Below, one piece after another: positions 43,618 through 53,538 of a stretch of 53,631 nucleotides of DNA. Every line of letters starts with the position of its first letter. Position 1 is the first letter of the stretch. The notes below the pieces were generated by a model. It was not told where the DNA came from. It ran no database searches and worked only from the letters and a program-made list of their open reading frames with translations. The position numbers were made by a program, and so were the translations under genes. The stretch comes from Sulfurirhabdus autotrophica. Lineage in GTDB: Bacteria > Pseudomonadota > Gammaproteobacteria > Burkholderiales > SMCO01. The stretch lies in NCBI RefSeq assembly GCF_004346685.1, contig NZ_SMCO01000022.1, positions 1-53,631 on the forward strand, read 5' to 3'.

Positions 43618-43680
43618 AACCAAACAGTTTTTTCTATTAAGGCTGAGAAATATCAAATCTTAACTTTGGGGAGAGTTTGC

Positions 43681-44775
43681 ATGCAAAGACGTTCGTTTTT
43701 GAAAAAAGCGGGTATTAGCCTGGCAACCGGGGCAAGTGTGGTGGCTGTACCTGCTTTAGCCAAGGAAGAAGCATTGCCTGAAATACAATGGCGCATGGCA
43801 TCCAGCTTTCCTAAAAGCCTGGATACGATTTATGGCGCGGCTGAAACGCTGTCTAACCGTGTTTCCAAACTGACCCAGGGTAAATTTCAAATTCGCGTTT
43901 TTGCCGGGGGCGAGTTGGTGCCCGGTCTGCAGGTTCTGGATGCAGTCAGCCAAAATACTGTTCAGTGCGGCCATACTGCCAGCTATTACTATGTGGGTAA
44001 AAACAAAGCTTTTGCCTTTGATACGGCGCTTCCCTTCGGATTAACCGCCCGTCAGCAAAACGCCTGGTTTTATTTTGGTGGTGGTTTGCAACTGATGCGC
44101 GAGCTGTTTAAAGGTTATGGTCTGATCAATTTTCCGGGAGGCAATACCGGCACTCAGATGGGCGGATGGTTTCGCAAAGAGATCAAAAATCTGGCTGATC
44201 TGAAAGGACTTAAAATGCGCATTCCGGGAATCGGTGGCGAGATCATGTCCAAATTGGGTGTGGTTCCGCAATCCCTGCCCGGTGCAGATGTCTACCCGTC
44301 ATTGGAAAAAGGCACGATCGATGCAGCTGAGTGGGTGGGTCCTTACGATGATGAAAAACTGGGACTCTATAAGGTGGCCAAACATTATTATTATCCCGGT
44401 TTCTGGGAAGGATCAGCGAATCTGTCTTTCATCGTCAACCAGAAAGAATGGGACAAGCTTCCACCACTCTATCAGGAAGCCTTTGAAGTGGCAGCCGCAG
44501 AAGCCAACCTGATCATGCTTGCTGAATACGATGCCAAGAATCCGGCTGCATTGGGTCGGTTGTTAAAAGGCGGAGCCAAGCTGCACCCATTTCCCAAAGA
44601 TGTCATGGAAGCTGCACTCAAAGAAGCCAATAAGTTATATAACGAAGAAGCGGCTAAAAACCCTGCTTTTAATAAGATATACGCTTCCTGGAAGCGTTTC
44701 CGTAATGACGAATTTCAGTGGTTCCGTGTGGCTGAAGCGACATACGCAAACTTCACCTTTAACAACGTCAAGTAA
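43681..44775 (+). CDS. TRAP transporter substrate-binding protein (DctP, Tat-exported, TakP-like)
   Basis: The 364-residue protein begins with a twin-arginine signal (QRRSFLKKAGISLATGASV), so it is exported folded. The mature part IQWRMASSFPKSLDTIYGAAETLSNRV, FPGGNTGTQMGGWFRKEI and LKMRIPGIGGEIMSKLG, with EWVGPYDDEKLGLYKVAKHYYYPGFWEG, resembles TakP of Rhodobacter, which binds 2-oxo acids as a dimer. The ATG at 43681 follows GGGGAG and is preferred over an in-frame start at 43666. It faces the matching DctM gene end, 188 bp away, which is unusual. Confidence 0.93.
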   Translation: MQRRSFLKKAGISLATGASVVAVPALAKEEALPEIQWRMASSFPKSLDTIYGAAETLSNRVSKLTQGKFQIRVFAGGELVPGLQVLDAVSQNTVQCGHTASYYYVGKNKAFAFDTALPFGLTARQQNAWFYFGGGLQLMRELFKGYGLINFPGGNTGTQMGGWFRKEIKNLADLKGLKMRIPGIGGEIMSKLGVVPQSLPGADVYPSLEKGTIDAAEWVGPYDDEKLGLYKVAKHYYYPGFWEGSANLSFIVNQKEWDKLPPLYQEAFEVAAAEANLIMLAEYDAKNPAALGRLLKGGAKLHPFPKDVMEAALKEANKLYNEEAAKNPAFNKIYASWKRFRNDEFQWFRVAEATYANFTFNNVK

Positions 44776-44777
44776 CT

Positions 44778-44797
44778 CGGGTGAATATCCCGTTTTT
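44778..44797 (+). terminator. Weak terminator after the TakP-like gene
   Basis: CGGG (44778-44781) pairs with CCCG (44789-44792), followed by five T. The stem is short. Confidence 0.35.
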
Positions 44798-44880
44798 CAG
44801 CAAACCTGGAAAAGGGAATGATGTCAGGCAGGCACATGCTTGATATCGGCTGTGGTTAAGGTTTGCTTCCATCTAAAACA

Positions 44881-44913
44881 GTTAACCGCAGAGGCGCGGA
44901 GGCGCAGAGCAAG
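44881..44913. repeat. Purine-rich dispersed-type repeat
   Basis: The segment CCGCAGAGGCGCGGAGGCGC, continuing CAGAG, is a run of near-repeated GCAGAGGC/GCGGAGGC units in the gap between the convergent TRAP genes. Similar units, often written ACCGCGGAGGACGCAGAG, occur between genes of many proteobacteria. Origin and role are unknown. Confidence 0.45.
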
Positions 44914-44963
44914 AAAAGCATAGTTTCTATGCTATCAGGCTATTTACCTTCGTCTTTTTCCTG

Positions 44964-46433
44964 TCATTTAGTGCCTTCTCCATCGTTACTGAATGTAAAT
45001 TCAGGTGCCTCTGTTGGCGCGTCATAACGCTGTACCGGTAACTCAATTTTTAGCGGTGTATTTGCCGATACTTTCTTTTGTTCTACCGTGACCAGATTAG
45101 GGAAAGCGATAATGAGTCCCACCATGATGATCTGAATAAAGATAAATGGTATTGCTCCCCAATAAATCTGGGGAGTGGTGACTTTAGCAATGGACTTGCC
45201 TGTCATTTTGTCCAGATAGTCGTCCTTAGGTGCAACGCTGCGCAGAAAGAAGAGTGCAAAGCCAAATGGCGGGTGCATGAAAGAGGTTTGCATGTTGACT
45301 GCGAGCAATATGCCAAACCAGATCAGGTCTATCCCCAGTAAGCTCGCGACTGGAGCCAGCAAAGGCACAAGAATGAAAGCAAGTTCAAAAAAATCCAGAA
45401 AAAATGCCAAAACAAAAATCAGGATATTCACTACCACCAGAAATCCAAGTTGACCGCCAGGCAAACCGGTTAGCAGGTGCTCTACCCACTGGTCACCATT
45501 CACACCACGGAAAACCAGGCTGAACACGGTGGAGCCAATCAGAATAAACATCACGAATGATGACAGTTTCGCAGTCGTGTTCATGGCTTGTTTAAGCATA
45601 CTGAGATTGAGTCGTTTGTTGATGAGTGCCAGTATCAGTGCGCCTGACGCACCCATTGCACCGCCTTCGGTGGGGGTGGCAATGCCGAGGAAGATCGTGC
45701 CGAGTACTAGAAAAACGAGAAATAACGGAGGGACTAACGTGAATAAAACTTTACGCAGTAGCGCAAATCCTTTCAATGTCCTGGCCTCTGGTGGCAGTGC
45801 AGGTGCCATAGCCGGTTTAAGCAAGGATATGCCCAGTACGTAGGCGGCATAAAAGCCGGTAAGTGCCAAGCCGGGAAGCAGGGCAGCGCTGTACATATCG
45901 CCAACCGATCTTCCCAGTTGGTCAGCCAATACAATGAGCACCAAGCTGGGCGGCAGGATTTGTGCGAGTGTGCCGCTGGCGGCAATGACACCCGAAGCGA
46001 GGCGGCGATCATAGCCGTAGCGCAGCATGATTGGCAGGGATATCAATCCCATGGAAATCACCGAAGCGGCTACCACGCCGGTGGTGGCCCCCAATAGTGC
46101 GCCTACCAGCACCACGGCAAAGGCAAGTCCGCCACGTAATGGCCCGAATAACTGTCCTACGGTCTCCAGCAGGTCCTCTGCCATGCCGCTGCGTTCCAGA
46201 ATCAGGCCCATGAAGGTGAAAAATGGAATAGCCAGGAGGGTTTCGTTTTGCATGATGCCGTAAATGCGTTGTGGCAGGGCACCCAGCAATTCCGGTGTGA
46301 ATAATCCAAGCTGGATGGCAATCCAGCCGAATAACAGGCCATTGGCCGCAAGGGAAAATGCCACCGGGTAACCAATCAACAGAAAGATTACCAGTGAGGC
46401 AAACATTAGCGGTGCCATCATGCTCGCAGACAT
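44964..46433 (-). CDS. TRAP transporter large membrane subunit (DctM family)
   Basis: The 489-residue protein is longer than usual DctM (about 430). It has the signatures LLAIPFFTFMGLILERSGMAEDLLE, VVAASVISMGLISLPIMLRYGYD, SGTLAQILPPSLVLIVLADQLG and NMQTSFMHPPFGFALFFLRSVAP. The long C-terminal tail (KVSANTPLKIELPVQRYDAPTEAPEF) is polar. It forms the transporter with the next upstream DctQ, whose stop it overlaps by 1 bp. The long form is typical for TakPQM-like systems for 2-oxo acids. Confidence 0.95.
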   Translation of the reverse strand: MSASMMAPLMFASLVIFLLIGYPVAFSLAANGLLFGWIAIQLGLFTPELLGALPQRIYGIMQNETLLAIPFFTFMGLILERSGMAEDLLETVGQLFGPLRGGLAFAVVLVGALLGATTGVVAASVISMGLISLPIMLRYGYDRRLASGVIAASGTLAQILPPSLVLIVLADQLGRSVGDMYSAALLPGLALTGFYAAYVLGISLLKPAMAPALPPEARTLKGFALLRKVLFTLVPPLFLVFLVLGTIFLGIATPTEGGAMGASGALILALINKRLNLSMLKQAMNTTAKLSSFVMFILIGSTVFSLVFRGVNGDQWVEHLLTGLPGGQLGFLVVVNILIFVLAFFLDFFELAFILVPLLAPVASLLGIDLIWFGILLAVNMQTSFMHPPFGFALFFLRSVAPKDDYLDKMTGKSIAKVTTPQIYWGAIPFIFIQIIMVGLIIAFPNLVTVEQKKVSANTPLKIELPVQRYDAPTEAPEFTFSNDGEGTK

Positions 46434-47008
46434 TACGCTTCCCCTTCTTTTTGAGAGGCATCCATGAATTCGCTGAGTGGCGGGTGAGATGGGGGTTCTG
46501 GTGGTTCGATTCCCAGCAAAAAGCCAATGCGTTTGATGATCTCGGCAATGCCTTGTAACAGCAGTAAAAGAAAACCCGCCGGGATAAGTGCTTTTGCTGG
46601 CCAGAGAATCAGCCCGCCTGGGTTACCAGACCACTCTTGGGATAACAGAGAGTGGGTGAAAAAAGGCCAGCTGTAATAAAGAATAATCAGTGACATGGGT
46701 AGCAGAAAAAATAGGCCCCCAAAGATATCCAGCCAAGCCTGCGTGCGTTTGCTGAATCGTCCGCTAATCACATCCACCCGCACATGTTCGTTTTGTTTCA
46801 GGGTGTATCCGGCAGCAAGCAGAAAGACAGCTGAAAAAAGATACCACTGTATTTCCAGAAAGGCGTTGGAGCTGACGTTGAACAGTTTTCGACTAATGGC
46901 ATTGCCCGTACTAATGAGTACAGTAACCAGAATCAGCCAGTAAACTGAATGTCCGACACGCTCGTTCAAGTAGTCTATCAAATGGGCAATACGCAGTAAT
47001 GCTTTCAT
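46433..47008 (-). CDS. TRAP transporter small membrane subunit (DctQ family)
   Basis: The 191-residue protein has four membrane helices and the DctQ pattern: NERVGHSVYWLILVTVLISTGNAISRKLF, LEIQWYLFSAVFLLAAGYTLKQNEHVRVDVIS, LDIFGGLFFLLPMSLIILYYSW and LIPAGFLLLLLQGIAEIIKRI. The fused-like C-terminal tail is Pro/Glu-rich. Its start codon is 2 bp from the left edge of the 621-bp tandem duplication, and the promoter must lie in that repeat. Confidence 0.93.
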   Translation of the reverse strand: MKALLRIAHLIDYLNERVGHSVYWLILVTVLISTGNAISRKLFNVSSNAFLEIQWYLFSAVFLLAAGYTLKQNEHVRVDVISGRFSKRTQAWLDIFGGLFFLLPMSLIILYYSWPFFTHSLLSQEWSGNPGGLILWPAKALIPAGFLLLLLQGIAEIIKRIGFLLGIEPPEPPSHPPLSEFMDASQKEGEA

Positions 47009-47009
47009 T

Positions 47010-47630
47010 TTGTGGTCTTTGTCAAAATCTGTTTAATTAGTGGAGGCATTATACCTTGGCGCCGGATTGGTAAAATGTGTCTGTAGTTTGGTATGGTCAA
47101 TAAACGTTGACGTGAAAATGAGCGCAACTTAAAATCAAAGTCAGCAAGCAGTCAGTTCATGCATAATACCCAGCTTATGGCGGGTGGTAAAAAATGAAGA
47201 CTCAATAATGACAACAGAAAACGGTCACTTAATCTCCCCCTTGTTGTCCCCGCAGCGACTGGCTATGATTTTCGGGCTAGCATTGATGTATTTTCTGGCA
47301 GGCCGGTTGGGTCTGCTGCTAGCTATTCCCCCTGGTTACGCAACCGCTATTTTCCCTCCAGCCGGTTTTGCCCTGGCCGCCTTACTCCTTTACGGAAATA
47401 GAATCTGGCCGGGCGTATTGCTTGGTTCGTTTGCGCTCAATCTGTCCATGGCACCGCATTTTCAAAATGTGTTCAGTCACACTGGATTAGTCGCGCTCTC
47501 TATCGCTATCGGCGCAACGATGCAAGGGCTGTTCGGCGCTGCACTGATTCGACGCTTTGTTGGTTTTCCCACTCCCCTCGCAGAAGAGTGGGAAATTTTT
47601 AAATTTTTTATGCTGGGCGGTCCGGTCAGC
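47010..47630 (+). repeat. Tandem duplication, copy 1 (621 bp)
   Basis: This segment is identical by eye to 47631-48251. It holds the kinase promoter, ribosome site and first 141 codons of the kinase. The junction at 47630/47631 joins the kinase coding sequence (ending GGTCAGC) back to the upstream TTGTGGTC. The only shared base at the junction is one T, so no long homology explains it. Confidence 0.95.
47107..47135 (+). promoter_or_regulatory. Sigma-70 promoter in duplication copy 1
   Basis: TTGACG (47107-47112), 17-bp spacer, TAAAAT (47130-47135): 10 of 12 consensus bases. It would transcribe the truncated kinase copy and run into the second copy. Confidence 0.6.
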
Positions 47631-47657
47631 TTGTGGTCTTTGTCAAAATCTGTTTAA
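47208..47657 (+). pseudogene. Truncated 5' copy of the MASE1-CHASE-PAS histidine kinase gene
   Basis: The frame is the same as the intact kinase for its first 141 codons (from ATG 47208; a GTG start at 47184 is possible) and then reads GPVSLWSLSKSV-stop because of the duplication junction. It keeps only the first four to five helices of the MASE1 domain and has lost the CHASE, PAS, kinase and ATPase parts. Promoter and start signals are intact, so a short membrane protein may be made. It is a by-product of the tandem duplication. Confidence 0.9.
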
Positions 47658-48251
47658 TTAGTGGAGGCATTATACCTTGGCGCCGGATTGGTAAAATGTG
47701 TCTGTAGTTTGGTATGGTCAATAAACGTTGACGTGAAAATGAGCGCAACTTAAAATCAAAGTCAGCAAGCAGTCAGTTCATGCATAATACCCAGCTTATG
47801 GCGGGTGGTAAAAAATGAAGACTCAATAATGACAACAGAAAACGGTCACTTAATCTCCCCCTTGTTGTCCCCGCAGCGACTGGCTATGATTTTCGGGCTA
47901 GCATTGATGTATTTTCTGGCAGGCCGGTTGGGTCTGCTGCTAGCTATTCCCCCTGGTTACGCAACCGCTATTTTCCCTCCAGCCGGTTTTGCCCTGGCCG
48001 CCTTACTCCTTTACGGAAATAGAATCTGGCCGGGCGTATTGCTTGGTTCGTTTGCGCTCAATCTGTCCATGGCACCGCATTTTCAAAATGTGTTCAGTCA
48101 CACTGGATTAGTCGCGCTCTCTATCGCTATCGGCGCAACGATGCAAGGGCTGTTCGGCGCTGCACTGATTCGACGCTTTGTTGGTTTTCCCACTCCCCTC
48201 GCAGAAGAGTGGGAAATTTTTAAATTTTTTATGCTGGGCGGTCCGGTCAGC
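47631..48251 (+). repeat. Tandem duplication, copy 2 (621 bp)
   Basis: Identical by eye to 47010-47630 and continuous with the intact kinase gene. The absence of visible differences suggests a recent event, or an assembly artefact. Confidence 0.95.
47728..47756 (+). promoter_or_regulatory. Sigma-70 promoter of the intact kinase (copy 2)
   Basis: TTGACG-17 bp-TAAAAT, the duplicate of the promoter at 47107-47135. It ends about 73 bp before the kinase start. Confidence 0.6.
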
Positions 48252-50516
48252 TGTTTGGTAAATTCCGTTATTGGTACCAGCACTTTGATGGCAGCAGGGG
48301 CGATTACAGCAGATGCTTTTGCTTTTAATTGGTGGACCTGGTGGGTAGGTGACGTCATTGGCGTATTTATCGCCACACCCCTGGTATTTATTGCGTTAGC
48401 AAAACCAAGACTGTTGTGGAAGCAGCGTGTGCTCTCAGTGGCTCTTCCTCTTCTACTCACCCTGGCAGTCGTGATTACCTTGTTTGTGCACGCAAGTTCA
48501 TGGGAATCTCAACAGCAGCATGCTGATTTCAGAGATGAAACCAAGAATGTTGCGACTGCTTTGCATAGTGATTTGCAAGTATATCTGGCAATTCTTGCGT
48601 CTATTGAGCGCCACTTTGTTGCTTCAGGTGGGGAGGTGAGTCGCCAGCAATTTAGTATTTTCGTGGATGAGGCGCTTGGGAGACATCCTGGACTCCAGGC
48701 TTTGGAGTGGCTCCCTGTTATAAAGGAAGTTGATCGAGCCGGCTTTGAGCTTGCGCTCCAAAATGAAGGTTTTTCTGGTTTTCAGTTACTGGATCGCAAT
48801 ATGAGCAGCAAGGTGATACCTGCAATAAAGGCTGCTGAGTACGTTCCAGTGGCTTATGTTGAACCTTTTAAAGGAAATGAAAGTGCCCTTGGCTACAACG
48901 TTGCTTCCAATCCAGTCAGGCTGGATGCTTTGGTTCGAGCGCGTGATACGGGGCATGCTGTAGCAACGGGTCGAATTAAACTGGTGCAGGATACAAGTGA
49001 TCAATTCGGTTTTTTAATATTTTTACCTGTGTATGACCGAATCGGCAAACTGACAAATGCCGCCGAGCGGGCTCAGCATATTCAAGGTTATGCCGCCGCC
49101 GTGCTGAGAGTTGGCGACATGCTGGGCGTACATGCAAAAGGCTTGGCAAGCAGGGATATTGCATTACGGGTGATTGACGAAGCAGCTCCCGATGCTTCAT
49201 TGCAGGTGCTCTATCAATCGCCAAACTGGGGCGAAGCCACCGCTCAAAGTGCGCTAGGCCATTCATCCAATCTGGAAATTGGCGGAAGAACATGGCGAAT
49301 CGAATTTATGCCATTACCCCACTATCTGGTCATGCATCGTGCCTGGCAAGCGTGGGCAACATTGGCCGGCGGATTGTTGTTCACAGGTATGCTGGGTGCC
49401 CTGTTGCTTCTGATAACCGGCCATACCGGAAAAGTTCAGAAAATTGTGGATGAACGCACTAACGAGTTGCGCATTATTCTCGATAATGTTGTGGATGGCA
49501 TCGTCACGATTGATCAAAGTGGGAGGGTTCAGTCATTTAATCGTGCAGCCGAAACCATTTTTGGCTATCAGGCTAATGAAATTATCGGAAAGATCTTTAA
49601 AGTGCTCATGCCGGAACAATTCCATGAAGAATACGATGACTATCTGGACAACTTCCGTAAAACCGGTACCACACGTATATCTGGAAAGGTCAGGGAAATG
49701 GTTGGTCAGCGCAAGGATGGCAGTGCTTTTCCGATAGACCTTGCAGTTTCCCATAGCTTCCACCACGAGCAACCACTATTTATCTGTGTGGTGCGTGATA
49801 TTACCGAACGTAAACGTATCGATCGAATGAAGAGTGAATTCGTTTCCACCGTGAGCCATGAGTTGCGTACACCGCTTACCTCCATAAGTGGTGCGCTGGG
49901 TTTGCTTGCTGGTGGTGCGCTGAATGGAAATCCCGAACAGGTCAAACAGATGGTTGATTTGGCGCATAAGAATAGTCTTCGCCTTGCATCATTGATTAAT
50001 GATCTGCTGGATATGGACAAGCTGGTAGCAGGCAAAATGAAGCTTGAATTGACAGAGCAGCCCCTGATGCCACTGGTGGAGCAAACCATAGAAGCTATTC
50101 ACGCCTATGGAGAGAAATATCAAGTCAATTTTAAGCTTGTATCGCGGGAAGAAGTGGAAGTGCGAGTTGAAGGCAGCAGATTGATACAGGTGTTGAATAA
50201 TTTTCTCTCCAATGCAGCGAAATTTTCACCACGGGGCGGAGAGGTTGAAATTGCAGTACGCAAAGCAGGAGATGCGGTAAGAGTTGAAGTGACAGACCAT
50301 GGGGAAGGCGTCCCCGCGGCATTCCGGGAGCGCATTTTCCAGAAATTTTCTCAGGCGGATTCATCTGATACGCGACAAAAAGGAGGGACCGGTCTTGGCC
50401 TGGCCATAAGCAAAGAGTTGATGGAGGGCATGCACGGTGTCGTCGGGTTTGAATCGGAAGAGGGGCAGGGGGCGTGTTTTTATTTTGAATTGCCGATAAG
50501 TACTGGCAAGGGTTAA
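47829..50516 (+). CDS. MASE1-CHASE-PAS hybrid-less sensor histidine kinase
   Basis: The protein of 895 residues has in order: a MASE1 membrane sensor (about 10-215, LAMIFGLALMYFLAGRLGLLLAIPP), a periplasmic CHASE domain (about 235-430, with YVPVAYVEPFKGNESALGYNV), a membrane helix near 510-530, a PAS domain (about 550-660), HisKA with His677 (VSHELRTPLTSISG), and HATPase_c with N box NNFLSNAAKF, DHGEGVP and GGTGLGLAISK. It has no receiver domain and no response regulator gene is next to it. ATG 47829 is chosen: a 4-codon leader ORF (47815-47829) ends in TAATG with it; GTG 47805 is an alternative. It lies divergent from the TakQM-like genes. Confidence 0.92.
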   Translation: MTTENGHLISPLLSPQRLAMIFGLALMYFLAGRLGLLLAIPPGYATAIFPPAGFALAALLLYGNRIWPGVLLGSFALNLSMAPHFQNVFSHTGLVALSIAIGATMQGLFGAALIRRFVGFPTPLAEEWEIFKFFMLGGPVSCLVNSVIGTSTLMAAGAITADAFAFNWWTWWVGDVIGVFIATPLVFIALAKPRLLWKQRVLSVALPLLLTLAVVITLFVHASSWESQQQHADFRDETKNVATALHSDLQVYLAILASIERHFVASGGEVSRQQFSIFVDEALGRHPGLQALEWLPVIKEVDRAGFELALQNEGFSGFQLLDRNMSSKVIPAIKAAEYVPVAYVEPFKGNESALGYNVASNPVRLDALVRARDTGHAVATGRIKLVQDTSDQFGFLIFLPVYDRIGKLTNAAERAQHIQGYAAAVLRVGDMLGVHAKGLASRDIALRVIDEAAPDASLQVLYQSPNWGEATAQSALGHSSNLEIGGRTWRIEFMPLPHYLVMHRAWQAWATLAGGLLFTGMLGALLLLITGHTGKVQKIVDERTNELRIILDNVVDGIVTIDQSGRVQSFNRAAETIFGYQANEIIGKIFKVLMPEQFHEEYDDYLDNFRKTGTTRISGKVREMVGQRKDGSAFPIDLAVSHSFHHEQPLFICVVRDITERKRIDRMKSEFVSTVSHELRTPLTSISGALGLLAGGALNGNPEQVKQMVDLAHKNSLRLASLINDLLDMDKLVAGKMKLELTEQPLMPLVEQTIEAIHAYGEKYQVNFKLVSREEVEVRVEGSRLIQVLNNFLSNAAKFSPRGGEVEIAVRKAGDAVRVEVTDHGEGVPAAFRERIFQKFSQADSSDTRQKGGTGLGLAISKELMEGMHGVVGFESEEGQGACFYFELPISTGKG

Positions 50517-50574
50517 AAATACGATAATAGGAAGTTTAAAATGTGGGTAATCATGAACGAGATGAAAGAGAAAT

Positions 50575-51393
50575 ATGGGCCGTAATTATCGAATTTTTAT
50601 AGGGATGGGGGGCGTGCCACCTCGTGAAAACCCAGAAGCCCATATTTGGGAGCGCAAGCTGCATTGGGTAATGGTGGGTGTGGCCTTGCTGGCCCTTCCG
50701 GCATTTTATCTGGAGGTGAGTCACCAATCCGGATTGCTCAGTGTAATCGGGCAAGTGCTGGATAGCATTATATTGACAGCATTTGTAGCGGAACTCGGCT
50801 GGATGCTTTATTTAACCCGCCAGAAGTTAACCTATGTAATGTACAACTGGCTGGATTTGCTGATTATATTTGGTGCGGCAATGAGTTTCGTCGGGGTAGA
50901 GGCGGAATGGATTCCCTTGGTTCGGTTGCTGCGGCTGGCCTACGTTTCCTTGTTGCTGGCTCGTGTGCTCGGGTCATTGCGCAAATTATACGCACCAACG
51001 GCTATACCTTATTTACTTGGGTGGGGGGCGGTAACCCTCGCGCTGGCAGGGGCGGGGTTTTTTTGGCTGGAACCGACAGTGCATTCCTATTCACAAGGGT
51101 TATGGCTGGCTTTTACTTCAGGTGCAACGGTCGGCTATGGTGATATTGTCCCCACCACCAATGCTTCGCGTGTGTTTGCAGTAATGATGGTAGTGCTGGG
51201 GTTCACCATGCTATCTGTGGTCACTGCCAGCTTGTCAGCATTTTTTGTCGGGGAAGAAGAAAAGGTATTGCGGCGTGAGATGCATCGGGATATCAAGGCG
51301 CTAAGGGAAGATGTAAAAGCCTTGCGTGGGGAGTTGAAAGTTTTCTATGAAAACAAGGCTTCCAGCAAGTCAGGGAGGAAAGAAACTATCTGA
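50575..51393 (+). CDS. Voltage-gated-type potassium channel (Kv-like ion channel)
   Basis: The 272-residue protein has six membrane helices: S1-S3 in the first half, an S4-like segment with spaced Arg (PLVRLLRLAYVSLLLARVLGSLRKL), a pore helix and the K+ filter TVGYGD (185-190), then S6 (FAVMMVVLGFTMLSVVTASL). The C-terminus is a coiled coil (LRREMHRDIKALREDVKALRGELK), which may hold the tetramer together. It should conduct K+ across the inner membrane. A 14-codon ORF at 50541-50585, with a better ribosome site (AGGAAG), overlaps its start by 11 bp and could couple translation. Confidence 0.93.
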   Translation: MGRNYRIFIGMGGVPPRENPEAHIWERKLHWVMVGVALLALPAFYLEVSHQSGLLSVIGQVLDSIILTAFVAELGWMLYLTRQKLTYVMYNWLDLLIIFGAAMSFVGVEAEWIPLVRLLRLAYVSLLLARVLGSLRKLYAPTAIPYLLGWGAVTLALAGAGFFWLEPTVHSYSQGLWLAFTSGATVGYGDIVPTTNASRVFAVMMVVLGFTMLSVVTASLSAFFVGEEEKVLRREMHRDIKALREDVKALRGELKVFYENKASSKSGRKETI

Positions 51394-51440
51394 CAATATT
51401 TTGATCTAATTTTGTATGGGGGTGACTTGGATAACAGTAT

Positions 51441-51602
51441 CTACGCGGGCTGGCTCAAAAATTCATCGGCCTGTTTATCAGTAAAATCTCCCCTGTTTAC
51501 CTCCGTCAGTTCATCTTTTCTTGATCCTTTTGAAAAAAACCTCGCATAAGAAGCTTGCGCAAGCTGTGCATATTCAAAATACTTAGAAATCGAGTTAATC
51601 AT
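51441..51602 (-). CDS. Small ORF, possible N-terminal fragment of a lipase-like protein
   Basis: The frame of 53 codons begins MINSISKYFEYAQLAQASYA and ends QADEFLSQPA-stop. The YAQLAQASYA segment resembles the start of some secreted lipase/RTX-type proteins, which would make this a truncated remnant, but this is from memory and weak. It starts 16 bp after the end of the 220-residue gene, which is on the same strand, so both are in one unit. No membrane segment is visible. Confidence 0.4.
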   Translation of the reverse strand: MINSISKYFEYAQLAQASYARFFSKGSRKDELTEVNRGDFTDKQADEFLSQPA

Positions 51603-51618
51603 GGTATTGCTTCCTTAT

Positions 51619-52281
51619 TTACTGAATAGGGGGAATAACGGCTTCGATAAAACCTCTGGTATCACCGCAATAGTTGGCTGATCCTTCTTTGTTAGCTCCA
51701 GTGATTACTCGAAGAAATCTAATTATTGTGCTGCCCTGATATCCAAAGCTGCGGGCAATACCCATACGCTCTTGGTTAGTCATGTTGTAAATTGATCTCT
51801 CAACCGACCATATATAGTTCGGTCTGCTAACGATTGATTGTTCAGACATCGCATATAGGACTGATGGCTTATCAATCACCTCATCTTGAATATCAAATTC
51901 CCCCTTAGAACCGGCACTATATCTATGAAGGTGGCCGTCATTTCGACCTTCTACAAACTTATAAAGACCACTTCGTTCACCATAAATTGGCTTCAAATAT
52001 TCCCTAGCAGTTCCAACGCCTACACTATTGTCATTGATGAAAAACCCCTCCACCGGAACACTCTTATACACATGCAGTCCACCCTCGCTTCTGCACAAGT
52101 ATTGCCAGTGCCAGTAGCCGTAAATTTCATCACCGAAAAACACCGTAAATAGCACGACGAACACTACCCAAGGTACAAGTCTGGATTGAAACCGCCTACC
52201 AGCCCACCGAGTACCTGCACGACTGACAGCAAGTCCTAGCAACAAATATCCCAGCAATAAAAATGGAAATAATAGAAACAT
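51619..52281 (-). CDS. Hypothetical membrane-anchored protein
   Basis: The 220-residue protein has two N-terminal membrane helices (LLFPFLLLGYLLLGLAV and LVPWVVFVVLFTVFFG), then a soluble domain with YWHWQYLCRSEGGLHVYKSV near residue 70, and a second Cys in ANYCGDTRGF near the end that could pair with the first. The soluble part is probably outside the cytoplasm. I do not recognise the family. AAGGAG lies 9 bp before the start. It is between two small ORFs on the same strand. Confidence 0.75.
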   Translation of the reverse strand: MFLLFPFLLLGYLLLGLAVSRAGTRWAGRRFQSRLVPWVVFVVLFTVFFGDEIYGYWHWQYLCRSEGGLHVYKSVPVEGFFINDNSVGVGTAREYLKPIYGERSGLYKFVEGRNDGHLHRYSAGSKGEFDIQDEVIDKPSVLYAMSEQSIVSRPNYIWSVERSIYNMTNQERMGIARSFGYQGSTIIRFLRVITGANKEGSANYCGDTRGFIEAVIPPIQ

Positions 52282-52386
52282 TTATGCCAACTCCTTCCAC
52301 ATACCATTCATGCCATTGGTTCCATTAAGAACGCGCAGGTTGTATTGCCAAACCCAACCTGCAGATCTATTTCCCATCTTTTTCAT
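52282..52386 (-). CDS. Small ORF directly upstream of the hypothetical membrane protein
   Basis: A 34-codon frame MKKMGNRSAGWVWQYNLRVL ends KELA-stop, with the TAA directly before the ATG of the 220-residue gene. Close linkage suggests translation coupling. It could also be the remaining C-terminal end of a lost gene. No family is recognised and the ribosome site is poor. Confidence 0.35.
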   Translation of the reverse strand: MKKMGNRSAGWVWQYNLRVLNGTNGMNGMWKELA

Positions 52387-52483
52387 TTTTTACATATTTC
52401 CTTCTCAAAAATTTCACTACTCTGCCCTACTCAATATCTTCGTGTGTATAGGCTCATGCCAACCCAACGTCCACATCACATCC

Positions 52484-53538
52484 CTACCGGCTGTTCACAC
52501 CCTGCACCACCGGCCTTAACAAACAACTAATCACTGCCTGATATTGCCTGAGGGATTGCTGCACTTCGTACTGCTCCACAATGGTTTGCCGTGCTGCCTG
52601 CCTGATGGAATGCATGCGGTCCGGGTGCCCCAGCACTTCATCTACCGCATCCGCTATCTGTTGCGGGGAGAAGAAATCCACCAATAGCCCGTTTTTGCCG
52701 TGTTGCAGTACTTCACGCACCGGGGCGGTATCGGATCCAATCACCAGGCACCCTGCTGCCATGGCTTCGAGCATGGACCAGGAGAGGACGAAGGGGACGG
52801 TGAGATAGATGTGGGCGGTGGAGACTTGCAGCAGTGCCAGATAGTGGGCATAGGGGATTTTACCCAGGAAGTGCACGCGGTGCGGGTCGATGCTGATTTC
52901 TTGTAACAGTTTTTCCCGCCAGGTTTGGTTGTTGGGTAGTTTCTGGCCGTAGCTGACTTCATCTCCCCCCACGATGACGATCTGGCTGTTGGGGTGGCGC
53001 CGGCAGATTTCGGGCACGGCACGCATGAACTGATGGAACCCGCGGTAGGGTTCCAAATTGCGCGAGACGTAGGTGATGACTTGGTCTTGCTGGGTTAGCA
53101 CTTTGCCGTTGGGCAGGGTGAAGGTTTGGCCGGGCGCTGGTTTCACCAGGCTGGTATCGATGCCTTCATGTATCCGGGTGATTTTGTGGTGGTAGCCCTG
53201 TGGATGCAACTGCTTTTGCCATTGGGTGGGGCTGACACCGGCATCGCAGGTTTCCAGGTTGAGCAGATGCAGCGCGTTGCGGGTGCGTATACGGGTGCGG
53301 CCATCCAGGCTTAAGGGGTATTCCGGGTCGAAGTTGGCATCGGCACCTTCTGCATGGTAGTAGAATTCAAAGTGGCTGAGCAGCGGGGTATCCGGGTAGA
53401 TGTCTTTGACGTACAGCGCTTCTCCCCAGCCGGGATGGGCGATGATGATGTCTGGTACAAAGCCGTCTGTTTTGAATAGGAACTTCGCCACAATGTTTTG
53501 CAGATTGAATCGTGATGCCATTTTGAATGATATTTTTA
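52484..53538 (-). CDS. GT4-type glycosyltransferase, 5' end cut off by IS element
   Basis: The frame is open from the IS border at 53538; the first ATG is at 53521, giving 345 residues. Family members are usually about 410 residues and start with MKILFVHQNFPGQF-like strands, which are missing here. The rest is well conserved: GFVPDIIIAHPGWGEALYVKDIYP, FYYHAEGADANFDPEYP, the second Rossmann domain TYVSRNLEPYRGFHQFMRAVP, IVIVGGDE, and the donor-site E-x7-E region LSWSMLEAMAAGCLVIGSDTAPVREVL. Without the N-terminal acceptor domain start it is probably inactive. It would otherwise add sugars to a surface polysaccharide. Confidence 0.85.

Follow-up and report, generated by a model that had tools for sequence, protein, structure and literature searches.

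We found two 621-bp blocks lying head to tail in the window (the whole stretch of DNA that was analysed, 53,631 nt), at positions 47010-47630 and 47631-48251, and direct sequence comparison shows 0 mismatches between them (621/621 identity), as an earlier sequence-only reading had judged by eye. An identity of 621 bases is beyond chance. The explanation that we favour, with reasonable rather than strong confidence, is a simple tandem duplication by illegitimate recombination, likely near-neutral and of an ordinary kind. The features of the locus are listed here by position.

44964..46433, minus strand: dctM, TRAP transporter large membrane subunit, intact (Pfam DctM)
46433..47008, minus strand: dctQ, TRAP transporter small membrane subunit, intact (Pfam DctQ)
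47010..47630, no strand: copy 1 of the 621-bp unit, comprising the dctQ/kinase leader and kinase codons 1-141 (47208-47630); 621/621 identity to copy 2
47107..47135 in copy 1, repeated at 47728-47756, plus strand: predicted promoter-like site towards the kinase, TTGACG-17-TAAAAT (consensus scan only)
47163..47191 in copy 1, repeated at 47784-47812, minus strand: predicted promoter-like site towards dctQ, TTTACC-17-TATTAT (consensus scan only)
47208..47657, plus strand: 149-aa frame of the truncated kinase, in which LWSLSKSV follows 141 kinase residues, with a partial MASE1 domain
47630..47631, no strand: novel junction where kinase codon 141 abuts the dctQ-proximal leader, with 1 nt of microhomology (T)
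47631..48251, no strand: copy 2 of the 621-bp unit, continuous with the remainder of the kinase
47829..50516, plus strand: intact sensor kinase, 895 aa, MASE1-CHASE-PAS-HisKA-HATPase_c (Pfam)

Anatomy of the repeat and its neighbouring genes

The unit starts 2 nt ahead of the dctQ start codon (position 47008, minus strand), runs through the divergent leader and stops at the end of kinase codon 141. Two head-to-tail copies meet at one novel junction, which is the arrangement of a simple tandem duplication. The period-621 match covers 622 positions, leaving the single T as junction microhomology, and the 24-nt junction sequence occurs once in the window. No other direct exact repeat of at least 40 nt is present within the window, and the next-longest exact repeat in 437,995 bases of the genome (the window together with sampled stretches) is 150 nt. 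When the unit was used as a query against the whole assembly, it matched one place only, where the overlapping copies are reported as a single place.

The intact 895-aa kinase includes copy 2, while the frame that starts in copy 1 crosses the junction and ends at a stop codon at 47655-47657, with a further in-frame stop at 47751. The fragment covers positions 5-116 of the 299-position MASE1 profile, compared to 5-200 for the full kinase (Pfam), and simple hydropathy (19-residue window, cut 1.6) finds two strong membrane segments in the fragment and six in the full protein. We consider the fragment probably nonfunctional, being either inert or degraded. Both the sequence and the Pfam matches bear out the anatomy proposed from the letters alone, with a shared leader, 141 codons, a short junction tail and a truncated MASE1.

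Within the kinase coding sequence, a 10-bp perfect stem precedes a T-rich tract at 47565-47610, repeated at 48186-48231. We considered this element as a recombination hotspot or a terminator and rejected both roles, as its fold is not unusual (z -0.75). Terminator-like sites were also at the level of shuffled sequence (2 found, shuffle mean 2.7). The unit ends 35 bp beyond the 10-bp stem, which we treat as a coincidence.

No gene is broken by the duplication. The start of the unit lies outside dctQ and its end within the kinase, which leaves both dctQM and the kinase whole: dctQ retains its leader, and the kinase is complete via copy 2. The earlier expectation that both divergent units keep full leaders therefore agrees with the sequence anatomy. 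No complete gene gains in dosage. The TRAP genes occupy 43666-47008, where dctP (plus strand) converges on dctMQ (minus strand), so that the binding protein gene lies outside the operon of the membrane subunits.

We compared the locus with other genomes, where the same-family set consists of this genome alone. A match to the first 141 kinase residues is present in 69 of 300 genomes of the order, this one included, at 94 places in all. An adjacent matching pair occurs in this genome only; the other 68 of the 69 are without an adjacent second copy, and the nearest same-contig pair among them is about 36 kb apart. The lack of adjacent pairs elsewhere is weak support for single-copy ancestry, because a short-read draft may merge exact copies in tandem into one.

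Among 23 loci compared, all 10 with a match to the MASE1 region (L016 and L095-L103) align through residue 141; this count leaves out two of the three loci from a contig scan, which match other parts of the kinase. The contig-scan loci share 28-41% identity, and the widest match is a Thauera kinase with 35% identity over residues 16-567. Therefore, these alignments point to a contiguous kinase gene as the ancestral state, with copy 2 as the intact version. A conserved pairing of dctQ and kinase was rejected: the kinase lies beside dctQ in none of the 8 dctQ-matching loci (from 11 loci, L003-L013, with about 1.4 kb upstream of each). No DNA match covering the leader was found in 40 other genomes, and a single-copy version of the same dctQ-kinase locus was found nowhere among the loci compared.

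Real duplication or assembly artefact

Contig-end overlaps reveal how the sequence was probably assembled. When 47 of the 118 contig ends were compared, 46 pairs shared at least 40 nt, of which 20 shared exactly 95 nt and none shared more. The assembly is thus probably a short-read de Bruijn assembly with k of about 95-96; ALLPATHS-LG uses k = 96. Such short reads are unable to span 621 nt or to count copies. The 16S gene occurs once, on a contig of 5,364 bases; with a query made up mostly of 16S, betaproteobacterial plasmid records ranked highest (the first at 88.9% over 74% of the query), and 22 of 339 records had their best place at 95-99% but ranked lower.

Other repeats were observed in the contig and the genome. 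Both contig ends (1-96 and 53537-53631) carry the same sequence of about 95 nt in inverted orientation, which is common to other contig ends, and a 97% copy of it lies within an IS1595/ISXO2-type transposase gene (L026, contig C1). Contig C4 carries two copies of a 435-bp piece, 2,025 bp apart and 96.3% identical (L044, 15204-15638 and 17229-17663); the piece comes from a long frame, named by eye as glycosyltransferase/sulfatase-like, and its duplicate lies outside the listed frames of at least 150 aa. This pair, also a partial-gene duplicate and close in size to the present unit but older, counts in favour of a real duplication.

An assembly artefact, which the sequence-only reading had raised as an alternative, would explain the repeat if the locus were single-copy and either two contig ends were joined without merging a 621-bp overlap or a chimeric molecule gave the junction. 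The short-read signature of 95-nt contig-end overlaps is consistent with such an error, as is a junction microhomology at the level of chance, which an arbitrary join would also produce. The 621-bp pair is moreover the only exact repeat longer than 150 nt in 438 kb, in an assembly with contigs that end in shared repeats. At least one published draft pipeline of this type simulates long pairs from an earlier assembly (PMC4062641) and, if used here, would repeat the errors of that assembly.

The k-mer content of the locus argues in the other direction. The duplicated locus contains 94 junction 96-mers that are absent from a single-copy locus, and the converse set is empty; at all sizes tested, up to k = 622, every k-mer of the single-copy locus is also found in the duplicated one. 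A graph walk of the k = 96 type needs these 94 junction-spanning 96-mers and can obtain none of them from a single-copy locus. Therefore, a contig built as a walk through the k-mers of the reads would imply that reads across the junction existed. The sampled 438 kb are also free of N bases and thus give no indication of scaffold joining. We rejected a systematic tendency of the assembler to duplicate, as no second exact tandem was found in 438 kb; the isolation of the event (1 case) likewise counts against an artefact. Short-read assembly is said to miss such duplications, according to part of a study of engineered duplications (PMC12607827), which makes an assembled one a little odd. Our search of the literature on false or small tandem duplications and on assembler k found little of use.

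We conclude that the duplication is quite likely real, whether fixed, mixed or amplified, and that an artefact is unlikely, while still deserving serious weight. A further version of the real event, which we consider improbable, is that the duplication exists in only part of the culture, or in more than two copies, and that the assembler unrolled the loop once. By reasoning, the distinct short k-mers would be the same for two copies, more copies or a mixed culture, and the excerpted text of the same study reports that duplications of all sizes were amplified in its engineered system (PMC12607827). However, neither a mixture nor a higher copy number has direct support.

Mechanism of origin

In the mechanism that we propose, illegitimate recombination independent of homology would have joined a point at kinase codon 141/142 to one just upstream of dctQ and so generated the head-to-tail 621-bp duplication. 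Its products would be a doubled divergent leader and a doubled kinase 5′ end, with the 149-aa MASE1 fragment as the sole new product. The duplication would be close to neutral, and RecA-type recombination between the copies could slowly revert or amplify it. We infer this origin, as well as the neutrality and instability of the duplication and its presence in cells rather than in the assembly only.

The junction itself carries no information on mechanism. We calculated the microhomology expected for 621-bp units at nearly every position in the window and obtained 0 nt in 55% of cases, 1 nt in 28% and 2 nt in 11%, while a microhomology of at least 10 nt arose in 1.3%, including units that overlap the real repeat. 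The observed 1 nt is at chance level and fits illegitimate recombination and an arbitrary join equally.

An insertion sequence-mediated or repeat-mediated (homologous) origin was rejected. There is no flanking repeat at the unit ends beyond the 1 nt, the window contains neither a tRNA nor an Rfam RNA, and no transposase family was found in the eight frames scanned (43666-53521, one of the eight being without a family).

Tandem duplication without homology is known from published work, as far as the available text of one source goes (PMC11111574). In the portion available of a Salmonella read survey, 5 of the 8 duplication junctions put to the test were confirmed, and the authors deduced 11 bp as the microhomology cut-off (PMC3411829). 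Longer microhomology was itself among the criteria for selecting candidates, and the tested duplication junctions that the text lists have at least 7 bp; consequently, the cut-off is weak evidence on a 1-nt junction. As far as these partial texts describe them, the spontaneous duplications of Salmonella and E. coli (PMC3411829, PMC11111574) resemble the present one in being head to tail, in having a novel junction and in needing no mobile element. The present one differs in its 1 nt of microhomology and in its short, 621-bp unit without a complete gene.

Age, loss and selection

With 0 differences in 621 positions, the divergence between the copies is below 0.48% (95% bound). At mutation rates of 1e-10 to 1e-9, this bound corresponds to 2.4 to 24 million generations. 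The earlier description of the event as very recent is thus loosely supported: the absence of any difference agrees with it, but a bound near 10^7 generations means that sequence identity alone is no proof that the duplication has just happened. Another process that could keep the copies alike is gene conversion between them.

Rates of loss provide another limit. A 2.6-kb duplication is lost at about 1e-4 per generation and short tandem duplications survive thousands of generations without selection, as reported in the available part of one study (PMC12607827), and 1-kb tandem repeats are lost in about 1e-4 of cells in an excerpt of another (PMC2884548). Loss at 1e-4 gives a calculated half-life of about 7,000 generations, which is an extrapolation for a 621-bp unit. 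By this analysis, age appears to be limited more by slow recombinational loss than by sequence identity, and the duplication is likely fairly young and near-neutral. Our duplication shares with those engineered in Pseudomonas aeruginosa a short, tandem form and an expected slow loss, but those described in the text available are at least 2.6 kb long, engineered, and marked at the junction (PMC12607827).

The sequence-only reading had also suggested selection for a dosage or promoter effect. Under such selection, dctQM or the kinase would gain promoters or regulator sites from the second leader, or the kinase would be modulated by the MASE1 fragment. Promoter-like sites are found on both strands within the unit (6, compared to a shuffle mean of 2.2, where each site is counted per copy and the minus-strand sites overlap), and an extra, distal promoter is possible for each operon. 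Promoter capture by tandem duplication is a known route, according to the part seen of one source (PMC11111574). However, these sites are mere consensus matches, the junction places no new promoter directly upstream of a complete or silent gene, dctQ and the kinase each retain their own adjacent leader, and there is no dosage gain for complete genes.

A promoter-capture duplication of the citrate transporter gene in the E. coli long-term experiment is cited in one of these sources (PMC11111574). Its tandem copy reportedly likewise spans part of a gene together with a promoter region. Here, in contrast, the junction gives no complete gene a different promoter. There is no need for selection to explain the repeat, because short tandem duplications are lost slowly without it, as the P. 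aeruginosa text reports in part (PMC12607827). We therefore find no support for the suggested dosage or promoter effect and consider a selected duplication very improbable. A speculative extension, to which we give just as little credence, is that the duplicated leader might act as a reversible regulatory array, where promoter copy number tunes the TRAP transporter and kinase and the MASE1 fragment, in the membrane, interferes with the full-length kinase.

For annotation, the truncated kinase frame should not be entered as a separate sensor gene. A check of the raw reads at this locus is due before anything is built on the duplication. If it is real, this tandem duplication would be a further example of short tandem duplications surviving in drafted genomes.
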